Source of the DNA: Bryopsis sp. KO-2023
Taxonomy: Eukaryota; Chlorophyta; Ulvophyceae; Bryopsidales; Bryopsidaceae
Length of the DNA: 64,000 nt
Assembly (NCBI GenBank): GCA_030272585.1
Contig: BSYQ01000007.1
Span: 4,530,001 to 4,594,000, forward strand
Reading direction: 5' to 3'
The notes beneath the pieces are model-generated. The model was not told the DNA's origin, made no database searches, and saw nothing but the letters and a program-made list of their open reading frames with translations. Both the position numbers and the translations under genes were made by a program. Positions within the stretch are counted from its first letter, which is position 1, and every line of letters starts with the position of its first letter. Positions 1,342-64,000 of this stretch are shown here, in pieces.

Positions 1342-1430
1342 TGGTTTTTCCCGAAAGGGTTTTTTTCCAAAAAAAACAGGCACGGCCTGGATGGGGCCAA
1401 AAGAAACGGGGTTCGATTCCCCTTGTGTCT
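1342..1430 (+). ncRNA. Candidate triple-helix stem-loop, A tract and tRNA-like module, copy 1
   Basis: Seen directly: TGG-TTTTT-CCC-GAAA-GGG-TTTTTTT-CCA at 1342-1369. This folds as a lower stem (TGG/CCA), a U-rich internal loop (U5 opposite U7) and a CCC/GGG stem capped by a GNRA tetraloop. A run of eight A follows (1369-1376). A 53-nt tRNA-like element then runs 1378-1430, with a 7-bp acceptor stem (AGGCACG with TGTGTCT, G-U pairs allowed), one short middle arm and a T-arm GGGG-TTCGATT-CCCC. The U-rich stem-loop plus A tract is the layout of an ENE triple helix, and an A tract followed by a tRNA-like RNA is the layout of MALAT1/mascRNA. A T-rich stretch follows the element. Function is inferred, not shown. 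A decayed tRNA-derived SINE is the main alternative. Confidence 0.5.
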
Positions 1431-2495
1431 TTTTTTAAAGATCAAAGGTGTCAGGTAAGTGTTCCTTTCGTGAGCTTTTTTTTTTTTTGAGGTTTCTCCG
1501 AAAGTTGTGCCGAACAGGTGAATGCTCCTGAAAAAATTTTTGTTTGGGGAATTGATCATGCTTTTGAACTCCATTAATGAATACGGATATGAAAACCTGA
1601 ATGTGTGAATAAATCATACGATTTCAACAGCAATGATTCTTTTAAATCGCCATAATGGAGATGCGGGAGCAGGAACTCACATTTCTGGGATATTGATATT
1701 TTTCATTCTTTTGGTGCCATAGATTCGATGCTGGACAGATAACTGGGGTGTTGATTGGTGATAATTGATGCAGATTCTACATTACCGAAACCTTGGAACA
1801 TTTTTGGATGTGGATATTAGCCACACACATATTAGGATTTCACATATATGAGTGGATGAAGCTTAGCTCATTGATGTTGATGAAACCACAGTTTTCCCTT
1901 CTCTTTGTTGGAATGCAATTTTATATTTTACGACATTTTGGAAAGTCTCCATGGCTAGGCTGGGTCGCATCTTGTTTGTTACGTGACTGTCCAGCCCACA
2001 ATGATTTATCCATAATTTCTCAGGTGTGCTGCTACTGTTGGAGATTTTGGTTCCCACAGTGTTGTGAATTTTGTATCCCATGACTTCGTGGGAGGGGTGT
2101 GTCGGAAAACAACCAGACTCTTTGAATAGCACCACCACCCTTGCAAAAGAATAAACCGTTGTAGTTTACATCAATCAATGCACAAGACAAGGAAGAAATT
2201 ATAAATCAAATATCCACGGTCCATGACATCCTCACAAACCACCCAATCACCCCCCCCCCCCCAAATGGGGAAACAAAAATGTTTCAGTCCGCATCTCAGA
2301 AAAAAATCCCTTCTGGAAAAGATCATAATTCAGCAACCCATTTCTCATTTCCAAGCAAAATGGCATGAAGAGACGAGCCAACAGCTCATGAGGCGATGCG
2401 GACTTCGCCACAACCCCTCCAAAGTACCGATCGATGCTTTCCAAATGTCGAATTCTACGACGATTCAGACAGCATCAGCGGTTGCATTCAGAATT
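1431..2495. other. Intergenic DNA, no gene seen
   Basis: AT-rich spacer between the copy 1 module and the end of NDC1. It has poly-T and poly-C runs (for example near 2250). The short open frames show no splice logic or family resemblance. Confidence 0.6.
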
Positions 2496-44956: not shown

Positions 44957-46601
44957 AAGAGAATTTGCATCCATTCGGAAAGACCTTTTTTTTTAGTCTA
45001 GCGCGCTCTTTACCATTTGCTGACTCCTTCGAGAAGGGGTCGTCGCTTTGGCTTTTAGTGTTACAACCATTGAGAGTGGTTGCTTTGTTTGTTTGGGTTT
45101 TTTTTGTTCGAGTGGGGGGAGGGGGAGGAGGTCAAATTCCTTACCCAGGATTTGATTTCCGTAGAATTCTTTCCGGAAAACGTTGAGGCGAGCGGTCTTT
45201 CGTTAGCCGGGGTGGTTTGATGATCGGGGGCTAATTTTTGGGATGGTCGAATCGTTTTCTTAGATGGGACGGGTGTTTGGATTTTTTTTAAATGCGTTTC
45301 TTCTTGGGGGGCTGGTTGAGATTAAATCAGAACTGGCGAAAAGAAAAGAGAGTTGGCAGATCAAAATATGAAAAGAAAGATGTTGGAAAAAAAAGAAAAA
45401 GGGAAGAAAACCCAAAAAAAAAACTGTTGCACGTTCGAGTGGGGGGTGATGGGGTGGAACGGTCCGAAAAGAAACAGTGGCTCTCGTTTTTCATTTCGAT
45501 TTTTTTTTTCCGACGAAAAAAAGTTTTGGAAATTGAGCTGTCGGGGTCGAAGAGGTTCTCAGTGGACATTTCCCCCTCACTCCATCTACCCTTATGTTTT
45601 CTATTTTACTTTTGTTTTGTGGGGAAAAATATACTAGAATCGTTTGCAGATCTTCCAAGACGGTGCCCGTATATTAACTTCTGTAATTGGGAAGGCGAAA
45701 ACCAGACCGTCTTTTTTTTTTCTTTTTCTTTTTCGAGGGATCGTGTGTTTTTTTGGAAAAACTGTTTGGGGTTCAGTACTCGGACATGCGGTTTTGTTCT
45801 TATTGGAGAGATTTTTGCTATGTTAATGAAGCTACTGTTAATTCCTTTTTTTGGTGTAAAATGCAAGGAAAAACGCTCCCTTCACACATCGGAGTGGTGC
45901 AAAAACGCAAACGATTTGGTGCTGCCAATTATGTGTCATGTGAATGCCAGGATGCAAGTCTTTTTAACTGGTTTCAGGGGGAGTCCAGTGTGTCACTCCA
46001 TACCTGTTTTGATCGACCTCAGTGGGTTCAATCATGTCAATCGGTCATGATATCTACACAGTTAATCAATTGTTTGTGGCTGGAATGTACTACATAACCA
46101 ACCAGGGCAGGGAATTTCTAAGTCGCCTCCTGTTTGTGGGCGTGTAATTGAGGGCAGCACATGAGTTTTGAGTCACTTGCATCATCAGATCTTGCAGTTG
46201 TAATTCTTATTGCAGTGAACTTACAAAAGGCGAATAACAAACAACGTGGCCACTGTAATTTACTTGTCAAATAGGACCATTAAAAAAAAAATCATTCGCT
46301 CTTTCCATTATTCACACATTCAGAATTTCATATTTGTATTCATTGGTGTCGTTTGAAACCATGATCGATTTGACCATTAAAAGAAAAACTAAAGAAATTT
46401 AGAGATTTCTAAATTTTGGAAGGTTCACCAGTTTTTAAGGATACGATTCAATTTTTCCACAATTTTTGGAAAAGGTCTCCACATTTGATGCTTATCAAAG
46501 TCAAACTTACCTGACATGGGAAAAAACAACCTGAGAAAACATGAAGGGAAAAATTTCCATGGAACAAAATTGTTTTGATTCATTTCTGGTTTGGGATATT
46601 A
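44957..46601. other. Spacer, no supported gene
   Basis: AT-rich 3' flank. A 252-codon plus-strand frame here has the composition of translated A/T-rich DNA (Lys and Phe runs) and no splice or family support. Confidence 0.5.
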
Positions 46602-46681
46602 AGGCACAGGGGCCCCAGTCTTTCTTTTGGCCCCAGTCAGTCGTGCCTGTATTTTTGGAAAAACCCTTTCGGGAAAAACCA
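46602..46681 (-). ncRNA. Triple-helix stem-loop / A tract / tRNA-like module, degenerate copy 3
   Basis: On the minus strand TGG-TTTTT-CCC-GAAA-GGG-TTTTT-CCA (46681-46656) is intact with a symmetric U5/U5 loop. A shorter A tract (AAAAAT) follows. The tRNA-like part (46648-46602) keeps the 7-bp acceptor stem AGGCACG/TGTGCCT. However, the T-arm has collapsed: GGGG and CCCC are adjacent and the TTCGATT loop is gone, leaving 47 nt instead of 53. Upstream on this strand the GACT-GGTC hairpin and the A-rich tail are present as in the other copies. It follows the pseudogene at 47339-58214 by about 660 bp. Confidence 0.5.
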
Positions 46682-58214: not shown

Positions 58215-60173
58215 ATCGCCAAGATAGAAAGAACGATGCGTATGCAAAGAACTTCTTTGAAAGCGGGTAAGACCAGAAAAGACGTCAGCTGGCTATATAC
58301 TGAAACTGTTCTACGGTTATGGAGTTTTTGTAAGTTCACCTGAACTTCTTGGTTCTGACAGAAAGAGCGTGCGGGAGTCGAACCCGCTGCCAGCAGCCGC
58401 GCCGCCTTTCTTCCTTGCCCCTGGTCGAGGCAGAGTGACTTCAGCGTGGCAGCAGACGAAATAATACTCTTAAGCACCTTCGACAAAGCGTGTTTTTTCA
58501 CTGAGAAACGAAATAGACAAAGGCTCACATGGTGTGCGAAGGGAGACTTCCTGCAAAGATCGAGCGGCGGCTCTATTCCTTCCAGTGAAACTTCAAAAAC
58601 ACGAGCTAGCCCCTATCGGGATCGGGAATGAACACAGGCTTGCAGTGGAAGCAAACTCAACGTTACGTTAACTTGGCGTTATGGCTTTTTTCTTCTCCTC
58701 TGCTGGTGCTGTAACGCGCGCGCACATTGACAAGCACAACTGAAGCTGTTTCGATTCCAGGAAACTGGGCTGCTCACCAAACAAGCTTTGCAAGACAATG
58801 CCCTTATAGCGCCATCGTACAAAAAGAGAGCCTGGTGGTAACTGATGGTCCGCCTGCTCGCCATGTTTCCCTTGCAAATGCAAAATATATGACCTGCACA
58901 TCGACGTGTCAATACCACTGCAGTGATGGGTTATTGCCAATTCAACAATCTGAATCTGATCTGATTCAGGCCTTTACATATCAAATTGAAAGAAAGTGTG
59001 CCCACCAAAAAAAAGTGAAAAAAAAGCGATCAGGTTTATTGATTTATTCTGTATTGAGTGTTCTGGGGAGGTTCTTTTATTTCCCTTGTTTGTGTTGTCA
59101 GCTTTCAAGTTTCCCTTCAAAAACTAGTTGTAAAAAATTGGACACTCTTCTTGATCCCATCCTCGATCATAGAGATACAGTACTCCTGGGTGGTTCATCA
59201 TCATCCAACCTCAATTCTTTTGCTGACAATCATGATCATGATGCATTGCCATTCCTTCAGTTTCTGCTCAGCCGAAGCCGACTTAAGTCGACAAGCTTGT
59301 TATTTCAAAAACAACACAGCCTTTACCAGATTTCATCCTGCTGCCCAGTACTAACCGACAAGACGCCGGGCTCAGAAGCTGGGCTTGTTGCGCTCTTTAA
59401 GTCCCCGCCTCACGCATGGTTCATGCATAAAGCATGATCAAGCAAAATGGCTGCTCAGCGCCGCCGGTCGATCGGCTTTTTGTTGCAGCGGAGCGGCCTC
59501 GCATCTCCGCAATCCTGCGTTTGTTTGTTTTCTACAAGCTCAGGTCACCTCATTAAGGAACCCCAAGAAACCTTGGCACAAACTTGCCACTCTTTTTGGC
59601 CATTATGCCACGGACTTTCATCTCGACTGCTTCAGTTTCCAAACCATCGACGCATCCCGACTGAACTCTGAAATGAGAAGCACAGGCACAGCCCCTGGGA
59701 TGCAAAATTCCATTGGCATCCACCATCAACGCGGGAGCGTTAAGGTTTGCTACCAGTGCTTCCATGCGTTGTGTGGACTCCCAACACAGCAGGAGCGAGC
59801 TAGTGTTTATGAAGTTGTACGGGAGAATAAATCTCGCCACTCGTTCTTTTTGGGAAGTCTCCCTGCACATACTCCTGCTCGTCAGGAAGTTGCCAGGGGA
59901 GCCTTGGGTTTCCTTGTTTCTCTGCTGCTTTCTTTCGTCTGCCGCCACGCTGAAGTCACTCTGCCTCGACCTAAGGCGGAAAAGAAGGGCGGCGCGGCTG
60001 CTTGCTGTGGGTTCGACTCCCGCACGCTCTTTCTGGCAGAAACGCGAAGTTCAGGTGATCTTACAGAAACTCCATAACCGTAGAACAATTTCAGGATATA
60101 GCCAGCGGACGTCTTTCCTGGTGTTACCCACCGAGTCGTAAGGTTCTGGTTTGTTTGTTCCGGTTCTTTGACG
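58215..60173. repeat. Head-to-head spacer with inverted T-arm-bearing promoter repeats
   Basis: The 5' flank of paralog B (58215-58700, read on minus) and of paralog C (about 59700-60173, plus) are inverted copies. Shared blocks include TTTCGTCTGC, CACGCTGAAGTCACTCTGCC, GGCGGCGCGGCTGCT, the T-arm motif and CCATAACCGTAGAAC. T-arm motifs are at 58371-58387 (minus GCGGG-TTCGACT-CCCGC) and 60007-60023 (plus GTGGG-TTCGACT-CCCGC). The middle and edges also match 13790-14340. Confidence 0.65.
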
Positions 60174-62040
60174 ATGATGATCTCAGTGGATGAGTGCGTG
60201 CGACTGGTTTTGGGGAGCTTTATGCTTTCGTTGGCGAATTGGATATGGCCACTGGTGTGGGAAAAGGTAGACTCAGGGTGGTGGTCGCCATGTCCCGTTG
60301 CAGCAACTTTCCAGACGTCACAAAGACGTCACATTCTAACCCAACCTGAAATGAATGTTCTGATTTCCGCAGATGAGGAGTATTATGTCCAGAGCGAACC
60401 GGCTTCAGGTGAGAAAGAGCCACCACCATCTGATTAATCAGTTTGGGTCAATCTACTGCTTCAAAAATCAGTAACCAAATTAGTTTAATTTTATTGATTT
60501 AAACAAGAAACTCACTGGCTACTTCAATAATTGATCCAAGTTTCAGTTCTTCGAATCGTCCCACGTGGGATTGTCGAAATAGAGGGGTTGGGAAAAAAAA
60601 CCTCATGTGTGCATGATTTACATACGTATGTAAACAGTTTACCCTTGAATGGTGCAGCATGCATTGCTCTTTGCATTGGAACTCAGTTTCTACAGAGGTT
60701 GCCGATTCACAAACCGTTTTGGATAACAATCACACAAGACGATGGGCTGCCAGAAAGTTTCCTTCATATTTTTCTTCCTTGCTGGTGAAACTTCCCTGGG
60801 TTTCAGATTGTTGGAGTCACTTTTCACGAGCTTTGTGTATCAATGTTTTCAGATCAGGGAAAAACTGGTCGAAGCTCGGGAAGAAAAGCTGATCAAGGAC
60901 TTGGCAGACCTTCAGCGGCGAGAGGAAGCTCTGGAGAAAAGGCTGCAACAGCAGGTGCACATTGGTTTCCTGGAGGAAAGCCCTCCTGTTTTTGATAACT
61001 TTTGTGGGACTTTTGATCTGTTCCGACACATGATGGAGCAGCACCGCCTGTTTTCCCCAAGCCAACATCCAATTAATTTTTTTCAATGTGTTTTTTTCAG
61101 GCAATTTCTGACTCGGACACCACTGCGAACGAGGAAGACGGGGAAGAAGGACTCAAAACGGAGGACTATTATTCGGAGGTGAAAGCGTTTGGGAGCACTT
61201 TTGAAAAGGATTCATGTTTGATTGTAACTGCCCGTCATTAAAAATTTTAATTTAAAATACCTGTTGAAAAGGATTCGTGTTTGATTGTAACTGCCCATCA
61301 TATTAAAACACCTGTGGAATTCAGACTGAGGCGGTTAGCTCGACTGAAACTGGGGAACAAGACGAGGAAATAGGAGAACAAACACAAGAAGAGGAGGAGG
61401 AGCAAACTGTATGACCCCCCCCCCTCTCTTGAAAATCCTCCCCCAATGAAGCAGCCAAAAACCAGATCCTATTGTGAATCATTTGTGGAAAACTTGAGAA
61501 TTGCGTGATGCTTGTGAAAAACATGAAAGTAAATGGCGAGGGTTCAGTGTTACTTTACGTTACTTTAGGTTGTGTGTTTTTTGTAGGAGCTGGACTATGA
61601 TGCCATTGTCAGGTCCTTTCTCAACATGATCAACTTGCTGACCTGGCTGCGAGATGATGTCTGGAGAATCAAGCAAATTGCAAACACAAGCACAGCAGAA
61701 ATTCTTGTAGGTTCTCTGATGCAATCACTCACTCCCCTTAAAAAAAGAAACAACAGCAACATGGCAACAAAAACTTATGATATTGTGCAAAATGAAATGT
61801 TGAAAATGTGTGTGGTATGTATGCAGAGAAAAAATGGGGAAATGCAAATCTTGATGGAAAATGATGCTGACCTGGAAACGTTTGTCGTCCGGAGCTGTAA
61901 CGACATGGGGCGGGAGTTGGAATCTATCAGGAAGGACCTCCGAAAGGTGATTGCATTCCTTTTTGTCAAAACAGTGAACCCCTGGCCATGACTGATCATA
62001 TGTTTCCTTGCAGCCCCCCAAGAAATGCCCATTTTATTGA
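60174..62040 (+). CDS. Paralog C: intact member of the unrecognised family
   Basis: Eight exons, all phase 0: 60174-60266, 60373-60408, 60853-60954, 61101-61178, 61325-61408, 61587-61706, 61827-61946 and 62014-62040 (TGA); 219 residues. Exon 1 holds an N-terminal membrane anchor (LVLGSFMLSLANWIWPLV). Exon 3 is a coiled coil (REKLVEAREEKLIKDL). Exons 4-5 are very acidic (ANEEDGEEG, QEEEEEQ). Exons 6-7 are helical (LNMINLLTWLRDDVW, GRELESIRKDL), and the tail is PPKKCPFY. Exon lengths (36 nt for exon 2; 120 versus 123 and 118-121 nt for exons 6 and 7) and order match paralogs A and B, but residue identity is low, so the family evolves fast. Function is unknown; an anchored coiled-coil tether is the most one can say. 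The A-rich tail and module at 62632-62719 follow. Confidence 0.7.
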
Positions 62041-62631
62041 TTTCCAGTAGGATTATCAGTGACTTTGTTTGTTTTCTTTGTTTCCAGTGATTCGAACAAA
62101 ATGAAGGGAGGGAGGGGAGCCGAACGAAAGAAAAAAAAGTAAGATTTAGGTTTTAAAAAGTGAAAAGAGAAAAAAAAGGGGGTATGAAGGGGAAAAAAAA
62201 AAGGAGAAAAAAAAAAAAAAAGGAGAAAAACTTCTACAATCTCAATGAAGATTTTTTTTGTCAAAAATAGAAAAAAGCACTAAAATTAATAGGCCTTCGA
62301 GCCAGGGGATAAAAAGGGATAATTAATATTAAGAAAAAAGGGTTAACAAACAGGGGATGGTTTGTTTTGATAAAAAAAGGGGAGTGAAAAAAAAAAAAAA
62401 GGAGAAAAAAACTTCTACAATCTCAATGAAGATTGTTTTTGTCAAAAAAAGAAAAAAGCACTAAGATTAATAGGCCTTCGAGCCAGGGGATAAAAAGGGA
62501 TAATTAATATTAAGAAAAAAGGGTTAACAAACAGGGGATGGTTCGTTTTGATAAAAAAAAGGGGAGTGAAAAAAAAAAAAAAAAAAAAGACTGATGTTCA
62601 TGGTCTTGAAAAAAGAAAGGTTAGAATTCTA
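62041..62631 (+). repeat. A-rich tail with two tandem ~181-bp units
   Basis: Two tandem units (about 62213-62393 and 62394-62575) share an AATCT-caatga-AGATT hairpin, GGCCTTCGAGCC, an ATTAATATTAAG block and AAACAGGGGATGGTT. The sequence differs from the tandem units at 889-1290, but size, position and A-richness are alike. An AGACT...GGTCT hairpin at 62588-62606 leads into the module. Confidence 0.65.
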
Positions 62632-62719
62632 TGGTTTTTCCCGAAAGGGGTTTTTCCAAAAAAAACAGGCACGGCCTGGATGGGGCCAGAAGAAAAGGGG
62701 TTCGATTCCCCCTGTGCCT
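62632..62719 (+). ncRNA. Triple-helix stem-loop / A tract / tRNA-like module, copy 2
   Basis: TGG-TTTTT-CCC-GAAA-GGGG-TTTTT-CCA at 62632-62658 is followed by eight A (62658-62665) and a 53-nt tRNA-like fold at 62667-62719. The acceptor stem AGGCACG/TGTGCCT is fully paired and the T-arm is GGGG-TTCGATT-CCCC. Relative to copy 1 the acceptor changes one G-U pair to G-C, keeping the helix. The middle arm (GCC...GGC) is too short for a normal D arm plus anticodon arm, as in mascRNA. Confidence 0.52.
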
Positions 62720-64000
62720 TATTGTAAAATCATAAGTGTCAAGTAAGTTTCACTTAACTTTCAAATGAGGTAACAGGTGAACCTTGTGCAAATTTTGAGC
62801 CCTATCTTTGAAAACAGGTGATAATGACATTGATGAAACCATATACTCTAAAAGAAAAAAATTGCTTGATCCAACTTTTTTATTGGTTAGCTTGTGACCC
62901 ACTTGTGATAGTTATCTGCTTCAGAAAAGCCTCATCCGCTACACAATCATGAGCGATGGCGAAACAAATTTCCATTAGTTACGAATCCTCATTGCTGTAT
63001 CGACACAAAGAAAAATCAAGAAATAATCTCTGATGAATGGCCCCTATTCGAGACCAGCCCCAGCACTCCCAAAACAGGACTACATAAGAACTCCTCAAGA
63101 AAATTTTGACTAGCATGACACTGATACACAATCGAAACAAGCAGGTGTAACGATCGAATCCTCTCGTTGCATTTGGAACATGCAAGAGAGGAAAAAAGTC
63201 GATTGATATTCGCTGAGGATGACGATCGGTTGCAACTCACCAAGACTACTCCACCTTCCATATACACTCTGTAGAATGGGGTCGAAGTCAAACAGCAAGG
63301 CAAATATCCAACCAGCACAAAAAAGGTTGAAACAATAGAATTGTTTTTCCTACTTTCTGTTTTGATATTTTTTGCTCCAATTTCAGAAAATTCCAAAACC
63401 AATGCTGTGAAACACCGAAATTTCCTGTTGCACAACTCCCCCCCCCCCCCCCGAGTATACTCATCAAATTGCATTTTGTTTTTCGAAACGGTGCCCTCTT
63501 CCCCCTTTTTGAAAAATTGGAAATCACAATACATTGTATCAAGCAACATAGCCGGCCAGCCTTATTTTTGATTTTAAAGTGAGTGGAACAGAGGCCACAA
63601 TTTTTATTTTTTTTTAATTAATTGATTTTGATGAAAAGGTTTCCGATGTTTGGAACAAAAGAATGAAGCTTTTTTCGTGAAACATACCCCCGCGAGGGTA
63701 ACGATCGTGCAATTTCCAACCATGAATTTTTTGTCAGAGGCACTCTCATCAGGCCCTGCTCTAACTTTTAGCCTCCTTCCCTACACTTACAAAAAACATA
63801 CAACAAATCACGGAACTTGTGAAAATAATAATTTTCATGATAACTTTTTTCGAGATGAAGCATTTTTCTAAACCCGAGCTTTGTGAAAAAATTGAATTTT
63901 TTGTAAGGATTCACCCTACCAGTTGCACTTTTGAAATCCAAACCAGCAAGAAATTGTCAAAAATCCAAACCTATCTAAACTAATTTGGGTTTGGTTGCAC
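62720..64000. other. Right-edge spacer, no supported gene
   Basis: AT-rich DNA with a poly-C run near 63441. A minus-strand open frame (63016-63549) contains a Gly run from that homopolymer and shows no splice logic or known motif. Confidence 0.5.

Follow-up and report, generated by a model that had tools for sequence, protein, structure and literature searches.

How does the mRNA of a protein-coding gene receive its 3′ end when the coding exons are followed, in the same orientation, by an encoded A tract and a structure resembling a tRNA? The question is raised by a stretch of 64,000 nucleotides from the green alga Bryopsis sp. KO-2023 (contig BSYQ01000007.1, positions 4,530,001 to 4,594,000; hereafter the window), in which a hairpin of the type called element for nuclear expression (ENE), eight encoded A and a tRNA-like structure (TLS) stand in series at the end of a gene. 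A preliminary description of this sequence had likened the arrangement to the 3′ end of MALAT1. Comparison of the copies found across the genome leads us to regard this module as quite probably a complete, poly(A)-independent 3′-end-forming element of RNA polymerase II mRNAs, in which cleavage in front of the TLS and a triple helix would take the place of the tail.

The anatomy can be read directly from the window. The hairpin has the letters UGG-UUUUU-CCC-GAAA-GGGG-UUUUU-CCA: U62632 pairs with A62658 and G62633-G62634 with C62656-C62657 in the lower stem, U tract 1 (U62635-62639) faces U tract 2 (U62651-62655), and the upper stem (C62640-62642 with G62647-62649, followed by G62650) is capped by a GAAA loop at 62643-62646. 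The A tract extends over A62658-62665, its first A being common to the lower stem, and is followed by C62666. The TLS covers A62667 to U62719 (53 nt), with U62720 next to it at the discriminator position, and is made of AGGCACG-GCC-UGGAUGG-GGCC...GGGG-UUCGAUU-CCCC-UGUGCCU. The ENE hairpin with its U5/U5 loop, the eight A, the 53-nt TLS and the TTCGATT T-loop of the preliminary description are all present. Its “perfect” acceptor stem (AGGCACG/UGUGCCU) does have all seven positions paired, although these are six Watson-Crick pairs and one G.U, and the 3′ end that it placed at 62665/62666 is one base away from the RNase P cut predicted here, at 62666/62667.

Neither a tRNA gene (ARAGORN) nor any family at the Rfam gathering score was found in the window, so that the mascRNA-menRNA family, which is present in Rfam, has no match there either; on these grounds the module was no longer considered a canonical tRNA gene or a member of a known RNA family. 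RNAfold recovered the ENE of the window copy with one extra U.G pair, and its TLS with a 6-bp acceptor, the D stem, the T stem and a T-loop drawn with 8 nt. Since the fold energies were unimpressive and RNAfold is without a triple-helix model, the case had to rest on comparison.

The assembly comprises 91.1 Mb in 28 contigs, and the contig of the window (C7) has 6,213,746 bases. A DNA query search of the genome gave 25 places, a pattern search four extra copies (three with GCAA loops), and two more DNA queries just one new, decayed copy (L046). With a covariance model (R1) built from 19 copies, 24 copies, 23 of them apparently intact, were obtained at E <= 1e-11 in 23 chosen source stretches; on 33 sources the model gave 28 matches above 40 bits, one locus being counted twice, and four copies outside its training (L033-L036) scored 73-81 bits. 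The copy count rests on the DNA and pattern searches, which were genome-wide, the covariance model having been run on selected loci. Two further patterns suggest that the count is near complete: one for the A tract with the start of the TLS had 35 genome matches, of which 18 were modules, each with its ENE and none of them new, and one for the 3′-half of the TLS, with two mismatches allowed, had 27, namely 23 modules, L021 and L022 (both truncated modules), and two further places. Chance origin was ruled out by this genome-wide recurrence and by the pattern controls (38 matches, overlapping duplicates included, versus 8 for the reversed control; 27 versus 2 for the TLS 3′-half). The ENE pattern had no exact match in a viral collection, to which the search for relatives beyond this genome was limited. 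All three copies counted in the window by the preliminary description exist, two of them intact and the third decayed (Table 1).

A common grammar is evident in the alignment of 24 copies, which omits the decayed L020, L028, L032, L037 and L046 and the unrelated L038-L041. Every copy parses as GG-U5..8-CCC-loop-GGG-(G)-U tract-CC-linker(0-4)-A6..9-C and then [AT][AG]GCA, with one extra A before the last motif in four; six or more A with C immediately after are found in 24/24. The TLS directly 3′ of the A tract is intact in 23 and damaged in L016. While the ENE loops vary (GAAA, GCAA, AAAA, UUGAC, UUCAAA, GUUACA), the T-loop reads TTCRANY in all 24, the predicted cut follows a C in 20 copies and an A in four, and the discriminator position is U in 22. 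Base pairs are also exchanged between copies: the third lower-stem pair is U-A in some and A-U in others (paired in 21/24), and one T-stem pair is G-C in 13 and U-A in 10. In the structural alignment, standard pairs occupy 91.6% of the cells versus 87.2% when shuffled (95.8% versus 89.6% for the TLS alone), and two-sided changes occur in 19 cells versus 5.8 (0/500 shuffles; slid controls 0-6); because these cells count sequences rather than events, from related copies and in an alignment fitted to the model, the covariation is taken as support and not as a probability.

Conservation is confined to the module to a large extent. Module copies are on average 0.92 identical within the largest host family, family A (66 pairs), and 0.81 between this and a second family, B (48 pairs); the mean is 0.82 both for these two families against eight other loci (128 pairs) and for seven of those loci among themselves (21 pairs). 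Flanking 90-nt windows have identities of 0.54-0.72 against 0.59 for composition-matched random sequence, and the highest value, 0.72, belongs to the window directly upstream of the module within family A. Among the DNA matches listed, most loci outside the two families are alike in the module and in little else, further common stretches being those of L015/L016, L023/L027 and L024/L026. At the sequence level, the module is an island of conservation. Furthermore, its parts seem to share one fate: among 29 loci with a recognisable module (the fragments L021 and L022 were dropped), ENE and A tract are intact at 23/23 loci with an intact TLS and at only one of six (L016) with a broken one (Fisher p 5e-5, for loci that are not fully independent and patterns of intactness written after viewing the copies). 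To judge from this table, ENE plus A tract and TLS are kept or lost as one unit.

The position of the module is likewise consistent from gene to gene. Family A, a coiled-coil family, accounts for 12 of the 24 copies and includes the gene in the window, where the coding exons E1-E5 lie upstream in sense; the preliminary description had likewise placed the module behind a protein-coding gene. In this gene the stop codon precedes the start of the model match by 545 nt, and the 3′ untranslated region (3′UTR) begins at 62091 and extends up to the module. At 11/11 family-A loci that are long enough, exon E1 lies upstream in the same sense as the module; it was also located for window copy A, whose gene has its E1 at C7:4528523-4528627, and E5 was detected at 6/12 family-A copies. 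The second coiled-coil-like family, B (coiled coil by eye), is upstream of four copies (L033-L036). A UbiA prenyltransferase precedes the module at L015 (two exons, E 5e-17 and 8e-8, Pfam), and a protein kinase (PF00069) at L024 in three pieces (E 3e-26, 4e-14 and 6e-14). The last exon of this kinase has no Pfam match, and its best matches in PDB are the C-terminal ends of AGC kinases (S6 kinase alpha-6, E 1e-4, then PKG and SGK1); it ends with TGA, and the module starts 27 nt later. Coiled-coil-like open reading frames (ORFs) are present upstream of L019 and ankyrin exons about 2.2 kb upstream of L023, and the upstream stretch of L026 is common with L024, that of L027 with L023. In Pfam, no family passed its cut-off for the ORFs chosen from L026 (four), L027 (two), L019 (two), L033 (one) and family A (two). 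All recognised upstream coding sequences have the orientation of the module, the Pfam searches having covered the sense strand. From these assignments, the module appears to serve four or more recognised kinds of genes in about seven unlike contexts.

The apparent poly(A) signal of this genome is TGTAA. The signal word UGUAA has been described as confined to late-branching Chlorophyta (PMC1868727), and together with LHCII-like proteins it points to a core chlorophyte. As a control, the light-harvesting genes of this genome were used (107 exon-level matches to PF00504; proteins green-lineage LHCII-like by eye): TGTAA occurs within 250 nt of the stop in 10/10 resolved 3′UTRs (shuffled mean 3.3, max 8) of this one family with some close paralogues, and is the most enriched pentamer in them. 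These ten exclude L055, whose last exon is unresolved and whose stop codon overlaps TGTAA, and the gene for protein-only RNase P (PRORP; L045), and L050 is treated apart. Before the module, TGTAA is found within 250 nt at 0/23 intact loci (shuffled mean 9.2; 0/300), within 400 nt at 2/23 (12.4) and within 600 nt at 3/23 (13.9). It is the rarest of its 30 anagrams at 250 nt, GTAAT being rarer at 400 and 600 nt. When each close group is represented by one locus, the counts are 0/14 at all three distances (shuffles equally low, 2/500 at 250 nt and 0/500 at 400 nt), the representatives having been picked after the 23-locus result and omitting L011, L012 and L029, the three with TGTAA within 600 nt; in L029 the word is within coding exon E5. 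A family-A gene that lacks the module shows the reverse: L050 (C6:3061500-3069500, minus strand) has exons E1-E5 and TGTAA 69 nt after the inferred stop. Because TGTAA is present in the control 3′UTRs and in L050 and absent from the 250 nt before the modules, module and poly(A) signal look like alternatives in these sequences.

A mechanism for such an end can be proposed. RNA polymerase II would transcribe through the module, and the TLS would fold as a minimal RNase P substrate and be removed at 62666/62667. The cutting enzyme would most likely be the plant-type PRORP, for which the genome has one gene (PF16953; best PDB match Arabidopsis PRORP1, E 1e-59); RF00009 found no RNase P RNA in this genome, the control genomes being equally silent. 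The exposed end, ...AAAAAAAAC, would then fold back onto the hairpin, with U tract 2 pairing with the A tract in antiparallel Watson-Crick fashion and U tract 1 serving as the parallel Hoogsteen strand. About five U.A-U triples would be formed between the CCC/GGG stem, which caps them, and the GG/CC lower stem, which seals them; in a plant ENE, the G-C pairs that flank the U tracts are reported to be essential (PMC12501189). By analogy with MALAT1 and PAN, the triple helix would shield the 3′ end from exonucleases and deadenylation. The mRNAs ended by such cleavage and triplex formation would be stable, exported and translated. As for the substrate, PRORP1 is reported to cut with high efficiency a substrate without an anticodon arm (PMC4975455, partly citing earlier work), and according to the same report removal of the D-loop abolishes cleavage, with D-loop positions 18/19 and T-loop positions 56-58 being of importance. 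The TLS has an acceptor of 6-7 bp and a T stem of 5 bp, a T-loop, GG in the D-loop and no anticodon arm, an anatomy that fits the published substrate rules of protein-only RNase P.

Several observations weigh against this proposal or narrow it. Single-sequence folding is weak for the window copy (z of -0.80 for the ENE, -2.15 for the TLS and -1.35 for both), in the minimum free energy structures of five other copies folded whole (L015, L018, L024, L027, L034; 5/5) a U tract is paired to the A tract instead of the ENE loop being left open, and in the folds of L018 and L027 the acceptor was not formed as expected. U tract 2, unbroken in 22/24 copies, is interrupted by C in L019 and L030, and the seventh acceptor pair is unpaired in 14/24. 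GG in the D-loop is kept in 23/24, L033 being without the loop, and small hairpins without a D arm are reported to be cut at least 1000-fold slower (PMC4975455). The host genes of L018, L019, L023, L026 and L027 are not securely assigned. Exon E1 gave 19 places in all, 16 of them counted at E < 1e-6; at 12 of the 16 the module lies about 1.8-3.3 kb downstream of E1, and the other four (window 58405-58289 on the minus strand, L049, L050 and L051) are without it, so the module is not obligatory, and at L049 the stretch holding E5, 3′UTR and module is missing. Nor is the signal word strict, since TGTAA lies about 262 nt before the module in the 3′UTRs of L011 and L012 and is missing within 700 nt of the stop of the PRORP gene. 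Finally, TGTAA is scarce after the module too (2/23 in 250 nt, shuffled 7.0), a result that simple replacement of one signal by the other would not predict.

This last point bears on the possibility that the mRNAs are polyadenylated downstream, the U-rich hairpin binding either the encoded A or the tail and the TLS being a mere 3′UTR structure for localisation, translation or regulated decay. Such an arrangement has a precedent in the ENE of the Arabidopsis transposon Evade, described as working on its poly(A) tail (PMC12501189), and AATAAA-like or TGTAA words do occur 3′ of some copies; yet TGTAA is scarce there as well, an A tract of at least six with its C is encoded ahead of the TLS in 24/24 copies, and the TLS retains the features of the RNase P elbow, which makes this reading unlikely. 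The modules could also be tails of separate non-coding RNAs that start in the 3′ regions of genes, in the fashion of MALAT1. There would be room for them in the gaps between stop and module of about 0.4-0.55 kb in family A and about 0.9 kb in L015, but hardly in the 27 nt of the kinase locus, and the poly(A) signal word is absent before the module; we consider this very unlikely.

A small tRNA-like RNA as the main product, with the mRNA end as a by-product, would recall mammalian mascRNA and menRNA, which are reported to be released and to reach the cytosol (PMC9777231). Such a product would have no use for ENE and A tract, however, and both are intact at all 23 loci with an intact TLS, so that this idea deserves slightly less credit still. 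Least credible of all is a tRNA-derived short interspersed nuclear element (SINE) or other Pol III element that landed by chance in 3′UTRs. The several unlike flanks would agree with it, and so would the T arm, which fits the B-box consensus GGTTCGANTCC. Against it, 14 loci have no clear target-site duplications (the best, 8 nt and A-rich, was equalled by 11/200 shuffles), a consistent T run past the TLS is lacking by eye, copies number about two dozen in 91 Mb and, where coding genes were recognised, stand in sense behind them, and the ENE precedes the tRNA part on its 5′ side, the two being conserved together. A scattered SINE with no link to genes, the outcome that the preliminary description had set against its own proposal, was not borne out in the genome: the copies are few, and linked to genes where genes are recognised. 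Its MALAT1-like reading is supported instead by the unit behaviour, the sense orientation, the island of conservation, the compensatory changes, the want of clear target-site duplications and the scarcity of TGTAA upstream.

Poly(A)-free mRNA ends are rare in eukaryotes, the textbook case being the replication-dependent histone mRNAs of metazoans. The present analysis suggests that some ordinary mRNAs of this green alga receive, in place of a poly(A) tail, an end made by a tRNA-cutting enzyme and a triple helix, and to our knowledge there is no earlier natural use of a MALAT1-type ending by protein-coding genes. If true, endings of this type evolved more than once and can serve RNAs destined for translation, and a natural, compact module of about 88 nt for tail replacement is at hand. 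Export and translation of mRNAs without poly(A) would become approachable, as would the question of why the module stands in for the poly(A) signal in some genes and the signal for the module in the paralogue L050, a gene that offers a natural comparison between two kinds of 3′ ends within family A.

Table 1. Module copies, parts of the module and exons of its host gene, in coordinates of the window
Feature	Position	Strand	Basis or remark
Module copy A, intact	1343..1431	+	Model R1, 105.7 bits; ends another family-A gene starting left of the window
Module copy B, decayed	46601..46680	-	Model R1, 49.4 bits; T-loop lost, A tract interrupted
Exon E1, family-A gene, conserved coding (AARLLAVGSTPARS...)	59989..60105	+	tblastn
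Exon E2, coiled-coil-like by eye	60853..60954	+	tblastn
Exon E3, coding	61101..61187	+	tblastn
Exon E4, coding	61587..61706	+	tblastn
Exon E5, last long coding exon, donor GT at 61947	61827..61946	+	tblastn and sequence
Stop codon TGA, start of last exon	62088..62090	+	Acceptor CAG, then TGA; exon boundary inferred
ENE-like hairpin	62632..62658	+	UGG/CCA lower stem, U5/U5 internal loop, CCC-GAAA-GGG upper stem; sequence and fold
Intact module at window gene	62633..62720	+	Model coordinates
Encoded A tract (A8) and C	62658..62666	+	Predicted mature RNA 3′ end after C62666
TLS	62667..62720	+	Acceptor, D arm (GG in loop), T arm TTCGATT, no anticodon arm

Some other features of these loci were recorded. 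The window holds a family-A paralogue at 58405-57209 on the minus strand, with exons E1 and E3 and no module. In the 3′UTR of the window gene, tandem purine-rich units of about 200 nt, about 95% alike, are located at 62194-62400 and 62372-62582, and similar internal repeats are found ahead of the module in L030 and L031. A 5′ splice-site word like CAGGTAAGT was noticed by eye about 20-30 nt past the TLS in several, not all, family-A copies (window 62740-62750). The sequence GGGTTCGACTCCC at the 5′ ends of family-A genes, tried as a second tRNA-like element, actually represents codons of a conserved exon (GSTPARS). Many modules have by eye a short variable hairpin 15-60 nt upstream (L009, L015, L033, L034; for example GACCA/TGGTC, CACTG/CAGTG and GGATTT/AAATCC), which was dropped as an element with z from -2.8 to +1.2 over 23 loci. 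In the decayed module of L046 (C5:185852-185901), a short GCACU/AGUGC hairpin replaces the TLS directly after the A tract. L018 has a long trinucleotide-like repeat (EEA/Gly-rich frames) after a signal-peptide-like start 1.6-2.5 kb upstream, and L016, which has a damaged module and is otherwise L015-like, a reverse-transcriptase/RNase H-like ORF by eye 2.1-3.5 kb upstream.

Among known systems, the ends of MALAT1 and NEAT1 (MEN-beta) are the closest in design. The order of U motif 1, stem-loop, U motif 2, A-rich tract and tRNA-like RNA is the same, with a predicted RNase P cut, and a stem flanked by two U-rich motifs and followed by an encoded A tract is present in 24/24 copies. The algal modules, in contrast, lie behind protein-coding genes rather than in non-coding transcripts, with coding exons of family A, UbiA and the kinase upstream in sense, which the transcripts would span. 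Set beside MALAT1's own sequence, they also have U5-6 tracts that are mostly unbroken, a short and often GNRA-capped hairpin, a linker of 0-4 nt and a TLS without an anticodon arm. MALAT1-type elements are reported from dozens of transcripts of anole lizard and from some fish (Zhang 2017a, cited in PMC10869381), and MALAT1 and NEAT1 have been described as the only long non-coding RNAs that use the tRNA-processing machinery (PMC12941219). A natural MALAT1-type end of a protein-coding gene, or of any alga, was not found in the literature searched, which was mostly open-access.

The ENE of PAN from Kaposi's sarcoma-associated herpesvirus (KSHV) and those of plant and fungal transposons such as Arabidopsis Evade (PMC12501189) share with the module copies a U-rich internal loop between G-C stems. 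These elements act on a poly(A) tail, whereas the algal A tract is encoded and followed by the TLS; the plant and fungal ones belong to long terminal repeat retrotransposons, whereas the recognised algal hosts are cellular genes, the RNAs at the UbiA, kinase and family-A loci being neither viral nor of transposable elements. Plant mitochondrial t-elements, proposed as PRORP1 substrates (PMC4368725), provide another likeness, being tRNA-like structures that terminate mRNAs as candidate substrates of RNase P; knock-down of PRORP1 is reported there to leave two t-element mRNAs (cox1 and nad6) unaffected. They are organellar, unlike the algal module, which is in a nuclear contig and is joined to an ENE and an A tract. 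The algal module would work like a MALAT1-type end, with no membership by descent implied, and its resemblance to MALAT1 and NEAT1 would be one of convergence. On balance it is likely that this alga possesses a second class of mRNA ends, one that lacks poly(A) and is produced by protein-only RNase P together with an encoded triple helix, used by at least four kinds of genes and arisen independently of MALAT1 and NEAT1.
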